NCBI RefSeq assembly: GCF_902168435.1
Contig: NZ_LR656165.1
Span: 186,001 to 250,000 of the forward strand
Origin: Bacillus marasmi
Lineage (GTDB): Bacteria > Bacillota > Bacilli > Bacillales > Cytobacillaceae
Length of the DNA stretch: 64,000 nt
Direction of reading: 5' to 3'
Positions within the stretch are counted from its first letter, which is position 1. The number at the start of each line of letters is the position of its first letter. Below are positions 3,983-37,872 of this stretch, in pieces. The notes beneath the pieces are model-generated. The model did not search any database. It was not told the origin of the DNA and saw only the letters and a program-made list of their open reading frames with translations. Made by a program: the position numbers and the translations under genes.

Positions 3983-4019
3983 AGTGTTTGTTCACCTCCA
4001 TTGTCTTTTTGCTTGTGGT

Positions 4020-4145
4020 CTATTAGCCGATTTTGCTGGTCTATTAGCTGATTTCGGCTTTCTATTAGCCGATTTGTGCATCCTATTAGCCGAATTTGGT
4101 GTTCTATTAGCCAAATTCAACACTCTATTAGCGCTTGCCACAAGT
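4020..4145. repeat. Tandem array, 21-bp unit, 6 copies
   Basis: CTATTAG recurs exactly every 21 bp at 4020, 4041, 4062, 4083, 4104 and 4125; the consensus is CTATTAGCCGATTTNNNNNNT. Because 21 is a multiple of three it stays open in one plus-strand frame (a repeated LLADFG-like peptide), but no suitable ribosome site supports translation. It fills the gap between valS and folC. Confidence 0.9.
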
Positions 4146-4177: not shown

Positions 4178-4231
4178 TTTAACGCTTTAAAGCAGTGGGG
4201 GACAGGCCCCCACTGCACTAGTGCGTTAAAG
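4178..4231. terminator. GGGGGACAG palindrome at the end of valS
   Basis: A long imperfect palindrome: TTTAACGC outer arm, inner arm GCAGTGGGGG, loop ACAGG, CCCCCACTGC, outer arm GCGTTAAA. It overlaps the valS stop codon (4226-4228). The same core with a perfect stem is at 8054-8096, also abutting a stop codon. It probably ends or stabilises the valS transcript; there is no long T-tract. Confidence 0.6.
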
Positions 4232-7261: not shown

Positions 7262-7550
7262 AAACCCCATTCGTCAAAAAAAGGACGAATGGAGTTAGCT
7301 TCGCGGTACCACCTTTATTCCAGCTAGCACGGCAATTGCACTAGTTGGCACTTAAACCTTTAACGGATGTCCCGTCTCCAACTACTTGTATATCGTTCAC
7401 TGGAGATGCTCAAGGGCGACCTTCCAATGGTCTGTTTAGGATGCTTTCAGCAATTGCCTCCCTCTCTAGAAAACAGATGAACATTGTACTCTTCCCTATC
7501 AACGCAATTATGTAAAATTGTATATTCCGCCTTATGCGGATTCAAATTTG
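7262..7550 (-). promoter_or_regulatory. T-box leader of valS (Val specifier GTC)
   Basis: On the minus strand the conserved T-box AAAGGTGGTACCGCG (about 7301-7315) precedes an antiterminator/terminator region whose terminator stem is CCATTCGTCC / GACGAATGG followed by a T-run near 7262. Upstream are the AGAGAGGGAGG stem region and a specifier loop GGAAGGTCGCCCTTGAG in which GTC (minus strand of 7418-7420) is a Val codon. Known T-boxes bind uncharged tRNA and read through when the cognate amino acid is scarce, so this leader fits valS. Confidence 0.93.
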
Positions 7551-10588: not shown

Positions 10589-10705
10589 AGCGACTCCTCC
10601 CTTCATATCCCTCTACATTAATCACCATGTCATTATCACTGTATGAATCGGTGGTTTTTTTTATGATAAAAACAAAGCATAGGGAGAGGTGGAAAGTTGG
10701 TTTCG

Positions 10706-11035
10706 GGGATTGAATTTTGTTTTTTGGCGATTAACATTTGTTTTCGGCGATGAAATCTTAATTTTGACGATGAAATCACGATTTTGGCGATTATTTCTTA
10801 ATTCCGGCGATTAAATCACGATTTTGGCGATTATTTATTAATTTCGGCGATTAAATCTCGATTTTGGCGATTATTTCTTAATTCCGGCGATGAAATCTCG
10901 ATTTTGGCGATTATTTCTTAATTCCGGCGATTAAATCTCGATTTTGACGATTATTTCTTAATTTTGGCGATGAAATCTCGATTTTGGCGATTATTTTTCA
11001 ATTCCGGCGATGAAACCTTAATTTCGGCGATGAAA
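10706..11035. repeat. Tandem array, 20-bp unit, 16-17 copies
   Basis: GGCGA (or GACGA) recurs exactly every 20 bp at 10726, 10746, 10766 and so on to 11026, with a weaker first copy at 10706. Consensus is GGCGATNAAATCTCGATTTT; units alternate between an ATTTCTTAATTCC and an AAATCTCGATTTT form, giving a 40-bp super-period over part of the array. It lies between spoVID and the hemL terminator, upstream of the spoVID start. Confidence 0.92.
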
Positions 11036-18303: not shown

Positions 18304-18888
18304 TTAACTCATATAGCTTTGTAAAATTCCCCAGGCTTTGTCTTTCCCTTCACCTGTTTCCGATGAAAACATTACAAAATGATCTTCTTCATGGAGCTCT
18401 AACGTTTCCTTCGTTATTTTCACATGTTTCTGCCATTTTGATTTAGGAATTTTATCAGCCTTTGTTGCGATAATAATACACGGAATGTTGTAATGCTTTA
18501 AAAAATGATACATTGTTTGGTCATCGACAGTTGGTGGATGACGCAAATCAACAAGCAGCACTACCGCTTTTAAAGGCTCACGAGAAGTGATATACGTTTC
18601 AATCATTTTCCCCCAAGCTTCGCGTTCTTTCTTTGATACCTTAGCATATCCATAACCTGGTACATCCACAAAATAGAATGATTCATTAATTAAGAAAAAA
18701 TTCAAAGTTTGTGTTTTTCCAGGCTTAGATGATGTTCTCGCTAACGCTTTGCGGTTTAGCATTTTATTTATAAATGAGGATTTCCCTACATTTGAGCGCC
18801 CTGCTAACGCAAATTCCGGTAAATCCCCCTCCGGATACTGGGCTGGCCTGACCGCACTTATTACTATATCGGCACTAGTTACTTTCAT
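18304..18888 (-). CDS. engB: Ribosome biogenesis GTPase EngB (YsxC)
   Basis: Essential GTPase for late 50S subunit assembly. 194 residues from ATG 18888, which has GGAGAAGGAA just upstream; the frame extends to TTG 18900 but homologues begin MKVT. G-motifs: G1 GRSNVGKSS (30-38), G3 DVPGYG, G4 ATKADK, G5 FSSETGEG. The start overlaps the last 14 nt of lonA, the same arrangement as lonA-ysxC in B. subtilis. Confidence 0.96.
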
Positions 18889-21211
18889 TTCCTTCTCCAA
18901 TCAATGCATGCTTCAAAACTTGATCAATGCTTGATACAAGCACAAATTCAAGCTCACCTCGAACGCTTTCCGGTATATCATCAATATCCTTTTCATTGTC
19001 TTTCGGTAGGATAATTTTTGTTAAACCAGCTCGATGAGCACTTAATGTTTTTTCTTTTAATCCGCCAATCGGTAAAACCCGACCTCTTAAAGTAATTTCA
19101 CCAGTCATACCAACTTCTTTACGAATTGGCTTACCAGTTAAAGCGGAAACGAGTGCTGTCGCAATCGTAATTCCCGCAGATGGACCGTCCTTCGGTACAG
19201 CTCCTTCTGGAACGTGAATATGAATGTCATACTTTTCATGGAAATCTGTTTCTATTCCAAGCTCTGTCGCTTTCGAACGGATGTAACTAAACGCAGCCTG
19301 AGCAGATTCCTTCATTACGTCACCCAGTTTACCGGTAAGAACGAGCTTGCCTTTACCAGGCGACAGCGAAACCTCAATTTGAAGCGTATCGCCACCAACA
19401 GTTGTATAGGCTAACCCTGTGGCTACACCAACTTGATCCTCAAGCTCCGCTTGTCCGTAGCGGAACACTGGCTTACCTAAGAATTCTTCAATTGTTTTAT
19501 CCGTCACAACGACTTTTTTCTTTTCTCCAGTCACAATAATTCTGGCTGTTTTTCGGCAAATCGTTGCTAATTGGCGTTCCAGACTTCTGACACCAGCTTC
19601 ACGTGTATAGAAACGAATGACCTTTAATATTGCTTCATCACGAAGCTGAAGCTGACTTTTTGATAAACCGTGATCCTTTACTTGCTTAGGAAGTAAATGA
19701 TCCTTGGCAATATGCAGCTTTTCGATTTCCGTATAGCCTGCAATCGTAATGATTTCCATCCGGTCGCGCAGTGGCCCAGGAATCGTAGCTAAGTTATTTG
19801 CTGTTGCGATAAACATAACCTTTGAGAGGTCATATGTTTCTTCAATATAATGATCACTGAAATTATGATTTTGCTCAGGATCCAATACCTCTAACATTGC
19901 TGCTGATGGATCACCACGGAAATCACTGGACATCTTATCAATCTCATCAAGAAGGAATACAGGGTTGATAGTTCCTGCTTTTTTCATTCCTTGAATGACA
20001 CGTCCTGGCATCGCCCCGACATAGGTACGGCGGTGCCCACGAATTTCGGATTCATCACGTACGCCACCTAAGGAGACTCGAACAAAATTCCGATTCATTG
20101 ATGTTGCGATTGACCGCGCTAAGCTCGTTTTCCCAACTCCAGGAGGTCCCGCTAAGCAAAGGATTGGCCCTTTTAAAGAATTGGTTAATTTTTGAACAGC
20201 TAAGTATTCTAGAACCCGCTCTTTTACCTTCTCCAACCCATAATGATCTTTATTAAGGATTTTTTCAGCCTTAAGAATGTCTAAATCATCCTCGGTTGCA
20301 GTTGTCCAAGGCAAGGAAATGAGCCACTCAATATAGTTGCGAATGACCGCACTTTCAGCAGAGCTCGTTGGAACCTTCTCATAACGATCCAGTTCTTTTA
20401 AAGCGGTTTCTTTGACAGCTTCAGTCATTCCCGCATTTTCAATTTTCTCAGTAAGTTCTGCAATTTCACCAGTTTTACCCTCTTTATCGCCTAACTCCTT
20501 TTGAATGGCCTTCATTTGCTCACGCAAATAATATTCCTTTTGGGTTCTTTCCATTGAACGTTTTACTCGTTGACCAATTTTTTTCTCGAGATTCAATACT
20601 TCTTTTTCATTATGAATAATATCAATGACACGACCTAATCTTTCTTTTACATTAATCGTCTCGAGAATTTCTTGCTTGTCTTTCAACTTTAATGGAAGGT
20701 GGGAAGCAATAATGTCCGCCATTCTTCCTGGTTCTTCGATATCAGAGACTGAAGAATAAGTTTCTGCTGATATCTTTTTCGATAATTTTATGTATTGTTC
20801 AAAATGTTCAAGCATTGTCCTCATTAAGGCTTGGTCTTCAACATCCTTCGTCGGAACATCCTCATATGTTTTTAAGTTGGCAACATAGTGAGTTTCCTCA
20901 TCGTGTAATTGAACGATTTCTGCCCGCTTTAGCCCCTCCACGAGAACACGAATCGTGCCGTTCGGAAGCTTGAGCATTTGTTTCACCCGTGTCAAAGTTC
21001 CAATTTGAAAAAGGTCTTCTTCCGTTGGCTCATCAATCGAAACGTCTTTTTGTGTTGTTAAAAAGATTAAATGGTCATCTACCATTGCTTTTTCAAGGGC
21101 TTGCACCGATTTTTCCCGACCAACATCTAAATGTAGGACCATCGATGGATAAACGAGTAACCCTCGAAGCGGCAGGAGGGGAACGATGAGCTCTTCAGTT
21201 TTGGTAGTCAT
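18875..21211 (-). CDS. lonA: ATP-dependent protease LonA
   Basis: Cytoplasmic AAA+ protease for misfolded and regulatory proteins. 778 residues from ATG 21211, which follows TGGAGGTG. Domains: N-terminal substrate-binding LON domain (about 1-200), coiled coil, AAA+ module with Walker [10 protein letters not shown] near residue 350 and Walker [10 protein letters not shown], and a C-terminal serine protease domain with catalytic Ser in PKDGPSAG and Lys in GGLKEKTL. It is downstream of lonB but separated from it by the large hairpin array and a terminator, so it must have its own promoter in 21212-21310. Confidence 0.97.
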
Positions 21212-21311
21212 ACAATAACACCTCCAAATGCAATACTTAAAACCCATACTTTTATCATAATTCAGTTGAAGTCTTTGTACAATCTTAACGTATTAAATAA
21301 AAGGAATCAAA

Positions 21312-21349
21312 GAAAAACTTCGGTTCGACATCATGTTGGCAAACCGAAG
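21312..21349 (-). terminator. Terminator after the hairpin array
   Basis: Stem CTTCGGTT (21318-21325) / AACCGAAG (21342-21349), followed on the minus strand by TTTTTCTTT. No other stem followed by a T-run lies between the lonB stop and this point, so the array is likely part of the lonB transcript. Confidence 0.75.
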
Positions 21350-21414
21350 CCAATTGGTTTTGATTGTTGAAATTTTTGTGGAATGAGTAGTTTATGATAT
21401 AAACTTTGATTCCG

Positions 21415-22850
21415 ATTTTTCTTGATGGCAAGATTTTTGGGCATCAATGTGGCTCTTTGATTCCCATTTTTTCTTGCTTTTAAGATTTTGGGCTCAATGG
21501 GGATTCTTTGATTCCCATTTTTTCTTGCGTTAAGATTTTTGGGCTTCAATGCGGCTCTTTGATTCCCATTTTTTCTTACTTCTATGATTTTGGGCATCAA
21601 TATAGCTTTTTGATTCCCATTTTTTCTTGCTTTTAAAATTTTGGGCTTCAATGTGGCTCTTTGATTCCCATTTTTTCTTGCTTCTAAGATTTTGGGCATC
21701 AATATAGCACTTTGATTCCCATTTTTTCTTGCGTTAAGATTTTTGGGCATCAATATAGCACTTTGATTCCCATTAAGCCACTTTTTCTTGCTCTACGGGC
21801 ACCAAAACTCCGCAATGGTTACCGCTATACCCTTTTTTCTTGCTTCGCGGGCACCATTCGCTCTCTAAGGTTACCGCTTAACCTCTTTTTCTTGCTTCGC
21901 GGGCACCATTCGCTCTCTAAGGTTACCGCTTAACCTCTTTTTCTTGCCTCACGGGCACCATACACACTCTATGGTTACCGCTTAACCTCTTTTTCTTGCC
22001 TCACGGGCACCATTCGCTCTCTATGGTTACCGCTTAACCTCTTTTTCTTGCTTCACAGGCACCATACACACTCTATGGTTACCGCTTAACCTCTTTTTCT
22101 TGCCTCACGGGCACCATACACACTCTATGGTTACCGCTTAACCTCTTTTTCTTGCCTCGCGGGCACCATTCGCTCTCTATGGTTACCGCTTAACCTCTTT
22201 TTCTTGCCTCACGGGCACCATTCGCTCTCTATGGTTACCGCTTAACCTCTTTTTCTTGCTGTGTGGGCACGATAGCTCGTCTATCGTTACCGCCCCAACT
22301 CTTCTCACCTTTTGACGGACACGATAGCTCGTCTATCGTTACCGCTCGAGCCATTTTTGCCTTGTGACGGGCACGATAACTCATCTATCGTTACCGCTCG
22401 AACCCGTTTCGCCTTGTGACGGGCACGATAGCTCGTCTATCGTTACCCCCCGAACTCTTTTCACCTTTTGATGGGCACGATAGCTCGTCTATCGTTACCG
22501 CTCGAACCCGTTTCGCCTTGTGACGGGTACGATAACTCATCTATCGTTACCGCTCGAACCATTTTTGCCTTGTGACGGGCACGATAACTCATCTATCGTT
22601 ACCACTCGATCCATTTTCGCCTTGTGACGGGCACGATAACTCGTCTATCGTTACCGCTCAAACCTTTTTCGGCACGTGACGGGCATGATAGCTCGTCTAT
22701 CGTTACCGCTCGAGCCATTTTCCCTTGTGACGGTCACGATAGCTCGTCTATCGTTACCGCCCGAACACTTTTCACCTTGTGTCGGGCACGATAGCTCGTC
22801 TATCGTTACCGCTTACTGCAATTCCACCTTGTGACGGGCACGATAACCTA
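21415..22850. repeat. Large hairpin tandem array, 51-52 bp unit, about 27 copies in three classes
   Basis: Marker TTCCC/TTACC recurs at 51 bp spacing from 21461 to 21767 (7 units, class A), then at 52 bp to 22235 (9 units, class B) and on to 22806 (11 units, class C; one step is 51). Each unit is GGGCA + arm + loop + complementary arm + TTNCC, followed by a linker of about 25 nt (TTTTTCTTGC in A and B, TTTCGCCTTGTGAC in C). Arms: A TCAA/TTGA, B CCAT/ATGG, C CGATAG/CTATCG. Classes are in register across their borders. A 51-bp period keeps class A open in a minus-strand frame of 140 codons with no ribosome site; I do not call it a gene. Confidence 0.95.
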
Positions 22851-22852
22851 AG

Positions 22853-24532
22853 CTACACGCTTTCCTTCTTAGATAAATCGATCGCGGCGGTAATAATTTG
22901 GTCGCGCGAATTTTCCTTGCCCAATTCCTTTACAAACGTGCGTTCAAAAACCTCATGCAAATGGGTCACGGGAATGATCTCGATTCCTTTTATTTCATGA
23001 AGCATGGATTGCATGTTTTCCTCTGGAATGATGACAGCTTTCGCGCCTGCCTTCATGGCTGCTTTTACCTTTGGAAAAACGCCACCAATCGGTTTAACGT
23101 TGCCATGAATGCTAATTTCCCCGGTCATTGCAATTGTATGGTCAACAGGAATTTTGTAAATCGCCGAATAGATGCCTGTAGCCATCGCTATACCGGCAGA
23201 AGGACCATCGACCGGAACTCCTCCAGGGAAGTTAACGTGAATATCATATTCATCTGCAGGAACACCAATTGAGCGGAGTACGGTTATTACATTCTCAATC
23301 GAACCCTTTGCCATACTTTTGCGGCGAATCGATTTACTTTGATTACCGATGCTTTCCTCTTCAACAATCCCGGTAATATTGATAGAGCCTTTGTCTTTGG
23401 CCGGCATGACGGTCACTTCAATTTCTAGTAATGAGCCTGAGTTTGGACCGTGAACAGCCAATCCATTGACTAAACCAATCGTTGGACTTTCGTTGATTTT
23501 TTTATTCATGCGAGGAGAGAGCTGACTGGAATGGATAATCCATTCGATATCATCATCCTTAATAAATTTACGCTCCTCCTGAATCGCAATTCCAGCAGCA
23601 ATTTGTATCATATTAACTGCTTCACGGCCATTACGAGCATATGTAGAAAGAATATCCAAGCCCTTGTCGCTAATAGTTAGATTTACTTTTTCAACAGCCT
23701 TTTTGGCGACCGTTGTAATTTCCTCGTGCGTAAGCTCCCTAAAGAAAACCTCCATACAGCGCGAACGAATTGCTGGTGGTATTTCATTTGGAGTTCTGGT
23801 CGTTGCACCAATTAAGCGAAAATCAGCGGGAAGGCCATTTTTGAAAATATCATGAATATGACTTGGGATTTGAGGGTTTTCTTCATGATAATAAGCACTT
23901 TCAAGGAATACTTTACGATCCTCCAACACCTTGAGGAGCTTGTTCATCTGAATGGGATGAAGCTCGCCAATTTCATCGATAAATAGCACACCACCGTGAG
24001 CATTTGTAACAGCACCTTGCTTTGGCTGCGGAATTCCAGCTTGTCCCATCGCACCTGCACCCTGATAAATCGGATCATGGACAGAACCAATCAATGGGTC
24101 GGCTATTCCCCTTTCATCAAAACGTGCTGTGGTAGCGTCCAACTCGATAAAAACAGCGGCTTTTGTGAATGGTGATTTTCCATTTTTCTTTGCTTCTTCA
24201 AGGACAAGTCTCGCAGCTGCTGTCTTACCGATTCCCGGAGGACCGTAAATAATCACGTGCTGCGGATTTGGACCGCAAAGAGCTGCCTTAAGTGACTTAA
24301 TCCCATCCTCCTGACCAACGATGTCCTCAAAGCTAGTAGGACGAACTTTCTCTGAAAGCGGCTCGGTTAATGAAATGGCCCTCATTTTACGAAGCTGCTC
24401 CATTTCTTTTCGTGACTCTCGGTCTATAGAAATCTTTTGGCTCCTTTGATTCTTTAATAGGTTCCAAAAATAAATACCGATTACGACGCCGAAAAATAGC
24501 TGTATGAATAAGGCGATCCCCGTCCAATTCAT
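22853..24532 (-). CDS. lonB: ATP-dependent protease LonB (Lon-like, sporulation-associated)
   Basis: Membrane-anchored AAA+ Lon-type protease; in B. subtilis it is made in the forespore under SigF. 559 residues from ATG 24532, with GGAGGG 6 nt upstream; upstream in-frame codons lie in repeat DNA. One transmembrane helix (about residues 5-23), Walker A GPPGIGKT at 97-104, Walker B VLFIDEIGEL, and a C-terminal protease domain with PVDGPSAG (Ser) and a Lys in VFPKVKAAMKAG. It lacks the N-terminal LON domain of LonA. The stop codon is directly followed by the 1.4-kb hairpin array. Confidence 0.95.
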   Translation of the reverse strand: MNWTGIALFIQLFFGVVIGIYFWNLLKNQRSQKISIDRESRKEMEQLRKMRAISLTEPLSEKVRPTSFEDIVGQEDGIKSLKAALCGPNPQHVIIYGPPGIGKTAAARLVLEEAKKNGKSPFTKAAVFIELDATTARFDERGIADPLIGSVHDPIYQGAGAMGQAGIPQPKQGAVTNAHGGVLFIDEIGELHPIQMNKLLKVLEDRKVFLESAYYHEENPQIPSHIHDIFKNGLPADFRLIGATTRTPNEIPPAIRSRCMEVFFRELTHEEITTVAKKAVEKVNLTISDKGLDILSTYARNGREAVNMIQIAAGIAIQEERKFIKDDDIEWIIHSSQLSPRMNKKINESPTIGLVNGLAVHGPNSGSLLEIEVTVMPAKDKGSINITGIVEEESIGNQSKSIRRKSMAKGSIENVITVLRSIGVPADEYDIHVNFPGGVPVDGPSAGIAMATGIYSAIYKIPVDHTIAMTGEISIHGNVKPIGGVFPKVKAAMKAGAKAVIIPEENMQSMLHEIKGIEIIPVTHLHEVFERTFVKELGKENSRDQIITAAIDLSKKESV

Positions 24533-24635
24533 CGCATTCCCTCCTGGAGTTAATAGTAGCTTATAATAATAGCTAGTATTTCCGAGCGTAGAGTGGAATA
24601 AACAAGAATTTTTTTGAAAAAATTGGATACCTAAT

Positions 24636-24870
24636 AAAGCGGAAGTGCCTTGCTCAGGGGCGACAGGCACAAAGCGAGCCCTGCAGGAGATTCTGATCAC
24701 CGTAAGCGATTGTAGGAAAAGTAAAAGTGGCTCGTTCAGGAACGACAGGCGTAAGACGAATCACGCAAGAGATGATAATCTCTGGAGGGATTTGGCTTAT
24801 AACATGAGCTCCTAGCCGCTTTCACTAGACAAGCTTGTAACCTCGAGCCCCTAGGCACTGGAACTAGATA
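24636..24870 (+). repeat. Dispersed repeat family A, copy 2 (decayed double unit)
   Basis: AAAGCGGAAGTGCCTTGCTC and GGGGCGACAGG match the copy at 7682-7800; a second decayed half (AAAGTGGCTCGTTCAGG, ACGACAGGCG) follows from about 24720, with another end copy at about 24840-24870. It fills the gap between clpX and lonB, upstream of the lonB start. Confidence 0.8.
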
Positions 24871-37539: not shown

Positions 37540-37840
37540 TTCAAATTAAAAAGCCCTTCCATCCCTCAATTCGCCTATTGGTGTTAGGCAAAGGGATGAA
37601 AAGGCTTTGCAACCTGTTCCACGGTACCACCCTTGTTCACGCTATTTACAGCGTGCGCTTATGAACGTAATCTGTTCCTTTTTAATAACGAGTGTGTGTG
37701 ACACCCGACCAGTCCTAATCGATTGCTCTTTCAGACCAATACTCTGAGGTGAGTTCATCTTATGCAGGATTACCGGTTTCCAGCTTGCCCGGCTCTCTGT
37801 AAATCCCTTTCCATAAAATTACTTATCCTCATCATCGTGT
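37540..37840 (-). promoter_or_regulatory. T-box leader of ilv-leu (Leu specifier CTC)
   Basis: Minus strand: T-box AAGGGTGGTACCGTGG near 37642-37657, then the terminator stem AAGCCTTTTCATCCCT with its complement ending near 37549 and a T-run. The specifier loop GATGAACTCACCTCAG holds CTC (37751-37753), a leucine codon, after the AGAGAGCCGGGC stem. The leader agrees with known ilv-leu T-boxes that sense uncharged tRNA-Leu. Confidence 0.94.
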
Positions 37841-37843
37841 TGA

Positions 37844-37872
37844 ATTATTTAATTAATAATTAGTTTACTCAA
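37844..37872 (-). promoter_or_regulatory. Probable promoter of the ilv-leu operon
   Basis: TTGAGT (37867-37872), 17-nt spacer, AATAAT (37844-37849) on the minus strand. An overlapping alternative is TTGAAC (37873-37878) with TAATTA. It lies just upstream of the T-box. Confidence 0.6.

Follow-up and report, generated by a model that had tools for sequence, protein, structure and literature searches.

The window analysed here is a 64,000-nucleotide stretch of the Bacillus marasmi genome, in which an array of tandem hairpin units separates two genes of the minus strand. Upstream of the array lies the reading frame at 22853..24700 (minus strand, stop codon 22855-22853), which we take to be lonB, following the name given in an earlier note on this DNA. 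Downstream is a gene at 18875..21247 (minus strand), with its start probably at the ATG near 21211, presumably lonA. The whole array was delimited by TRF, anchor motifs and the covariance model R1 at 21404..22847 (minus strand), and comprises 27 full units flanked by half units, the 3' half on the lonB side and the 5' half at the far end. The repeat array of the earlier note is thus confirmed, with its 51/52-bp pitch and its position between the lonB stop and a terminator. The 27 anchors, GG(T/G)AAC/T, follow one another in steps of 51 or 52 bp from 22810 to 21465; the pattern also matches at 22825 and 21413, neither of which belongs to a full unit. TRF reported the array as three segments, 21404-21774 (51 bp), 21773-22259 (52 bp) and 22265-22845 (52 bp), and R1, trained partly on these window units, recovered all 27.

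Going from lonB towards lonA, the array begins 5 nt past the stop codon with the 3' half unit GTTATCGTGCCC (22811..22847), continues with 11 type-A units (GGTAACGATAG...CTATCGTGCCC; 22240..22810), nine type-B units (GGTAACCATAG...ATGGTGCCC; 21772..22239) and seven type-C units (GGGAATCAAAG...TTGATGCCC; 21414..21771), all on the minus strand and placed by the anchors, and closes with the 5' half unit GGAATCAAAG, which reaches about 21404. Each unit consists of a 27-nt hairpin with the layout GG-T-A-stem-loop-stem-G-C-CC and a spacer of 24-25 nt containing an A-run, the stems being ACGATAG/CTATCGT in type A, ACCATAG/ATGGT in type B and GGGAATCAA/TTGATGCCC in type C. Beyond the array, a terminator hairpin with a T-run stands at 21312..21349 (minus strand), identified by comparison with congeners and by folding (-16.8 kcal/mol, z -3.5). 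A simple terminator scan of the lonB strand between 21180 and 22960 listed none, and this hairpin was missed too because its loop exceeds the limit of the scan.

The array is non-coding: it sits between two genes, and 52 is not a multiple of three. Open reading frames inside it, such as 21331-21753, are read as chance. With their period of 51, the type-C units remain open as a 17-codon repeat in the window (21331-21753), at L142 (1947-2420) and at L162; at this last locus, from congener G001, type-C units at 1726-2340 extend the frame of a truncated transposase-like gene.

The hairpin was evaluated in 53 units (51 distinct), 27 from the window and 26 from six other loci. Stem cells were paired in 85.1% of cases against 77.4% in 500 shuffles, none of which scored as high, and slid partners paired at most 46.3% of them. 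Changes on both sides were found in 46 stem cells, against 19.7 in shuffles, and one stem pair is G-C in 25 units and C-G in 22; since related units were counted separately, these pairing and covariation counts overstate the number of events and are not independent of one another. An alternative pairing across the spacer, from loop to loop, reached 85.2% of cells, and pair counts therefore do not choose between it and the short hairpin. Where unit types change, the short hairpin stays coherent on reading by eye.

The A-G mismatch was kept in 145 of 154 units from 14 arrays of this genome and in 123 of 148 units from relatives. Beside it stands U-C in 105 of the 154 own units (G-C in 44) and in 134 of the 148 relatives' units. 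In a 52-bp array at L178, 9025-9451 (the same as L146), the stem GGTAACCAT/ATGGTTACC is perfect and the mismatch position is paired. Within arrays, deviations at Watson-Crick pairs were compensated in 62 of 97 cases in this genome and in 18 of 47 in relatives. Selection on the sense RNA, sought as an excess of G-U pairs, was not supported, because G-U is not favoured over A-C: with related units counted separately, A-C was the commoner, at 34 versus 11 among 1078 stem cells of own arrays and 28 versus 16 among 1036 of relatives' arrays. Such a balance is more readily explained by DNA-level pairing or by templated correction than by sense-RNA selection. Compared with 15 dinucleotide shuffles, the array RNA folds more strongly by 7.5 sd on the lonB strand and by 15.2 sd on the opposite strand.

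Units of the same family were found with the DNA query and R1 at 14 other places in the genome, some of which hold only one or two units, and R1 gave at least 152 matches in this genome at E<=0.1 (150 of 1544 candidates scored). Counting the genome itself, 11 of 61 sampled genomes matched, none of them belonging to the 24 that represent other families of the order, and within the family 60 of 193 genomes matched at E<=1e-4, spread over 9 of 25 genera. Neighbouring units (lag 1) share an identity of 0.82 and units at lag 8 one of 0.58, and blocks of identical units are repeated (e.g., units 1-3 of L014 equal units 5-7), a pattern such as in-register duplication would leave. The locally expanding repeat that the earlier note had offered among its explanations is supported by this likeness of neighbouring units, by the repeated blocks and by the presence of the array behind lonB in two of the five genomes of the genus. 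R1-family arrays tend to start at the loop of the hairpin (mean column 15.9, Rayleigh p 0.002), a tendency that is weak for their ends (p 0.06), in a test on 36 of the 44 listed arrays, eight being left out. By eye, the edges of the listed R1-family arrays showed no clear rule of target duplication, and few stand-alone units occurred among 140 matches of the loop-to-loop model R2. At L010 (1-774), a 14.6-copy array of 53-bp period and other sequence lies about 700 bp from an R1-family array. At L150 and L152 (congener G002), a transposase-like, presumably IS256-like frame of 405 aa and a 329-aa form of it lie inside or beside two 52-bp arrays; arrays may thus serve as landing sites for insertion sequences.

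The family is one of many with this pitch. A TRF survey of 60 stretches of 20 kb of this genome (1.2 Mb) returned 83 arrays, 43 with a period of 50-53, one of 102, 20 of 19-21/40-42 and 19 others. The ~52-bp class, taken as the 43 together with the 102-bp array and with the lonB array counted as two, has 44 members that total 23,640 bp, or 2% of the surveyed stretches. Their consensus sequences differ widely; of 43 consensus units of the 52-bp families, 23 folded clearly better than shuffles (below z -1.64) and 20 did not. By eye, many of the class consensus units repeat one layout, in which outer pairs are followed by the mismatch and then the inner stem. In samples of 100 kb from each of seven genomes of the family, six contained at least one 50-53-bp array (14 in total; the sample of G002 had none) and six contained 19-21/40-42-bp arrays (17 in total). 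The sample from one genome of another family held no such arrays. Elsewhere in the window, an intergenic array at 2329-2582 (period 53) belongs to the ~52-bp pitch class, and two more, at 4019-4132 (period 21) and 10693-11031 (20/40 bp), belong to the 20/40 class; all three lie behind genes on the same strand.

The earlier note knew of no named element with this design; 52-nt tandem repeats of Bacillus had in fact already been published, and the lonB array belongs to these constant-length repeats (Subirana & Messeguer 2021). That work gives 4029 repeats in 176 Bacillus genomes, with 1886 falling at 51-53 nt and 781 at 20-21 nt, and describes the 52-nt repeats as constant in length, variable in sequence and of no known role (PMC8161180). 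Repeats of 52 nt were seen in RNA-seq of B. coagulans (PMC8625621). The features held in common are a pitch of 51-53 nt with more than four repeats in non-coding DNA (PMC8161180, PMC8625621), several families per genome alongside shorter repeats of 20-21 nt, the occurrence of short sequences together with their reverse within one repeat, and an array length that varies among relatives. The corresponding observations here are 27 units at 51/52 bp, several unrelated families alongside the shorter class (43 and 20 of 83 arrays), and a non-coding location, both for the lonB array and for the survey, with none of 44 arrays genic once open reading frames covered by an array to more than 30% had been removed. 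One feature differs: R1 occurs in 60 of 193 genomes and 9 of 25 genera, whereas the published families are called "species specific" with few exceptions in PMC8161180. We treat species specificity as a reported trend and not as a defining feature. The hairpin with a fixed mismatch and a covarying stem, the gene-end placement that is rare in divergent gaps, the orientation and the empty site do not appear in the text of PMC8161180 and PMC8625621 examined, and some of them may be contained in the J Bacteriol 2020 paper. In the main text examined of this 52-nt repeat literature, the words "hairpin", "terminator", "intergenic", "downstream" and "orientation" have no occurrences.

A CRISPR array was rejected because the spacers repeat along with the unit and are not unique. 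Rfam 15 gave three matches in the window at gathering score, none within the array; two of these are T-box leaders on the minus strand (7278-7511 and 37589-37844). BOX elements of Streptococcus are intergenic stem-loop repeats in which one module can repeat in tandem; by their description, their modular design and other host set them apart from the 52-bp arrays. The long non-coding satellites of Leptospira interrogans are similar in forming dispersed intergenic families of tandem repeats, and differ in repeat length, with 37, 46 and 69 nt (PMC6749651). REP/BIME sequences with RAYT (Y1) transposases resemble the units in being short, palindromic, extragenic, dispersed and able to repeat in tandem (PMC3733652), and differ in that strict 52-bp head-to-tail arrays are found here and the Y1 genes of this genome are not beside units. 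The RAYT/REP identity was rejected, as the two PF01797 loci of the genome have only weak R1 matches (E 0.12 and 0.19). The Y1-transposase gene at L164 is flanked by another palindrome, GGGGGACTGTCCCCC, and not by R1 units; none was seen at the other Y1 gene. A near relative of it in the window, GGGGGCCTGTCCCCC within CAGTGGGGG...CCCCCACTG at about 4180-4225, stands behind a 950-aa gene, and the two palindromes likely represent a REP family of this genome.

Class arrays occupy particular gaps. The 44 arrays fall into 28 tandem gaps, 12 convergent gaps, one divergent gap and three stretch edges, with none genic, on simple ORF calls; frames of which an array covers more than 30% were set aside in advance. 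The background of 497 gaps of >=100 bp, in which array-bearing gaps are included, has 324 tandem, 65 convergent and 108 divergent cases. Divergent gaps are therefore avoided (1 of 41 placed arrays versus 108 of 497 gaps, Fisher p 0.001). For 25 of the 28 arrays in tandem gaps, the remaining three having distances >1000 bp, the array lies a median of 79 bp from the upstream stop versus 199 bp from the next start (p 0.0002), and in 13 of these 25 a terminator-like signal precedes it. Samples of seven relatives, taken with two Mesobacillus loci, hold 17 arrays of the ~52-bp class, of which 2 are divergent and none is genic, and 2 of 17 arrays of the 20/40 class are divergent (one of the 17 not placed). 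The avoidance of divergent gaps is weaker in relatives than in the window's genome. Read by eye, R1-family arrays in tandem gaps run along the upstream gene in 20 of 23 cases (p 0.0005), split into 9 of 9 in this genome and 11 of 14 in relatives, a count that leaves out convergent, divergent and unclear entries and in which replication direction is a confounder.

At the lonB locus itself, five genomes of the genus could be compared. An array follows lonB in two, this genome with 27 units and G004, and in none of G001, G002 and G003; G001 and G002 are empty sites, and the G003 gap is likewise without an array. The lonB-lonA array of G004 has six units by the model (on L015) and about nine by eye, degenerate ones included. 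A terminator element, CTTCGGTTTGCC...CCGRAG TTTTT, occurs behind lonB in all five genomes. The terminator of lonB in G002, where no array is present, starts some 10 nt past the stop, and here a similar terminator stands beyond the array. This comparison bears out the earlier note's placement of the array between lonB and its terminator, and indicates that the retained terminator is the likely 3' end of lonB, such that the array is probably carried as a 3' UTR of ~1.5 kb, grown from roughly 50 nt. Since three of five congeners are without the array, lonB does not need it, and the array, present in two of five genus genomes, is not conserved as a regulatory 3' UTR of lonB. Together with the lack of a G-U excess, this goes against a task for the lonB message of the kind that the earlier note had offered as a possibility. 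In G002, an R1-family array is found one gene upstream, in the clpX-lonB gap.

In a wider set of 76 named lonB-lonA loci (831 kb), 71 had a measurable gap, and ~52-bp arrays occupied three of these, in Bacillus sp. DNRA2 (locus L015, probably the same genome as G004) and in two Mesobacillus maritimus records, whose arrays of ~52 bp have a unit sequence other than the window's. A test for degenerate arrays on the 52 gaps of >=230 bp found three clearly above shuffles, the same three as TRF. Of the four 51-53-bp arrays that the 831 kb contain, three sit in the lonB-lonA gap, a concentration that may be preference or chance.

The explanation we favour, and consider probable, is that a satellite of the 52-nt class, hairpin-forming and dispersed over the genome, has expanded locally at a tolerated site 3' of lonB, with no lonB-specific task. 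Its entry into the narrow stretch separating the lonB stop from its terminator would probably date from an ancestor shared with G004; later, recombination or slippage would have reshaped the array, duplicating units in register and deleting others. Stem sequences drift and yet stay complementary, either because the hairpin is selected or because mutations may be copied across it. Arrays would gather at the 3' ends of genes because insertion there spares coding frame and promoter; behind lonB, the array would ride along to the old terminator as a structured 3' UTR of ~1.5 kb, assuming that it is transcribed. Any role would presumably be that of the class, with hairpin and pitch kept for class-wide reasons. 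The 51-53-bp pitch common to many sequences, the conserved A-G mismatch, the orientation and the spread of arrays to new sites are not accounted for by a plain satellite. The M. maritimus arrays in the lonB-lonA gap also count against this explanation, as this gap could be a hot spot or the arrays could have a role in it.

An unlikely alternative is a DNA scaffold, in which a protein, perhaps of the nucleoid, would line up along the array on one face of the helix; the pitch would be kept for this protein, and the sequence could drift provided that the palindrome stays. Subirana & Messeguer propose a nucleoid protein for the 52-nt class. Under the scaffold reading, 52 bp is about five turns and 20-21/40-42 bp about two and four; periods of 50-53 and 19-21/40-42 make up 63 of the 83 survey arrays (64 with the 102-bp one), relatives' samples show the same pitches, and a stem tolerating both A-C and G-U is expected if no single RNA strand is selected. 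The candidate protein has no known identity, however, the stem varies more widely than a sequence-specific protein would allow, and gain and loss at lonB are rapid. A rather doubtful proposal takes 52-bp arrays as boundary elements at the ends of transcription units. In it, a fixed hairpin with outer G-C pairs, the conserved mismatch and a covarying inner stem, repeated at about five turns and oriented along the upstream gene, would be recognised by its shape and not its sequence, and a dedicated machine that measures length would add units running from loop to loop.

A functional RNA would act within the lonB mRNA by stabilising it or by binding a protein or another RNA, and the position before the retained terminator, the strong folding of the array RNA and the RNA-seq signal of 52-nt repeats in B. 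coagulans (PMC8625621) are in its favour. We regard it as improbable, given that the array is missing behind lonB in three of five congeners, G-U is rarer than A-C in own and relatives' stems, the lonB strand shows no larger folding excess than the opposite strand, and a terminator-like signal precedes 13 of 25 tandem-gap arrays, where little RNA is expected. Least probable of all appears a mobile mini-element of the REP/BIME or MITE kind, in which a loop-to-loop unit, TATCGTGCCC...GGTAACGATA, with imperfect inverted ends would be placed by a transposase and then multiplied in tandem. The clustering of array starts at the loop (p 0.002, weaker for ends at p 0.06) and the occurrence of related units at numerous loci and across 9 of 25 genera agree with such an element; against it, neither Y1-transposase locus has a convincing unit beside it, one being flanked by the other palindrome, stand-alone units are few, and no clear target duplication was seen by eye.

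Until now, the 52-nt repeats have been characterised by a constant length and a variable sequence, without known function. The covarying hairpin with its conserved mismatch, the placement at gene ends and the pair of empty and occupied lonB sites make the class testable. A covariance model can follow one 52-nt family across genera, and the strand test (G-U versus A-C) speaks against selection on the sense RNA. Furthermore, the lonB congeners provide a natural comparison with and without the array, in which the 3' UTR would be larger by about 1.4 kb.
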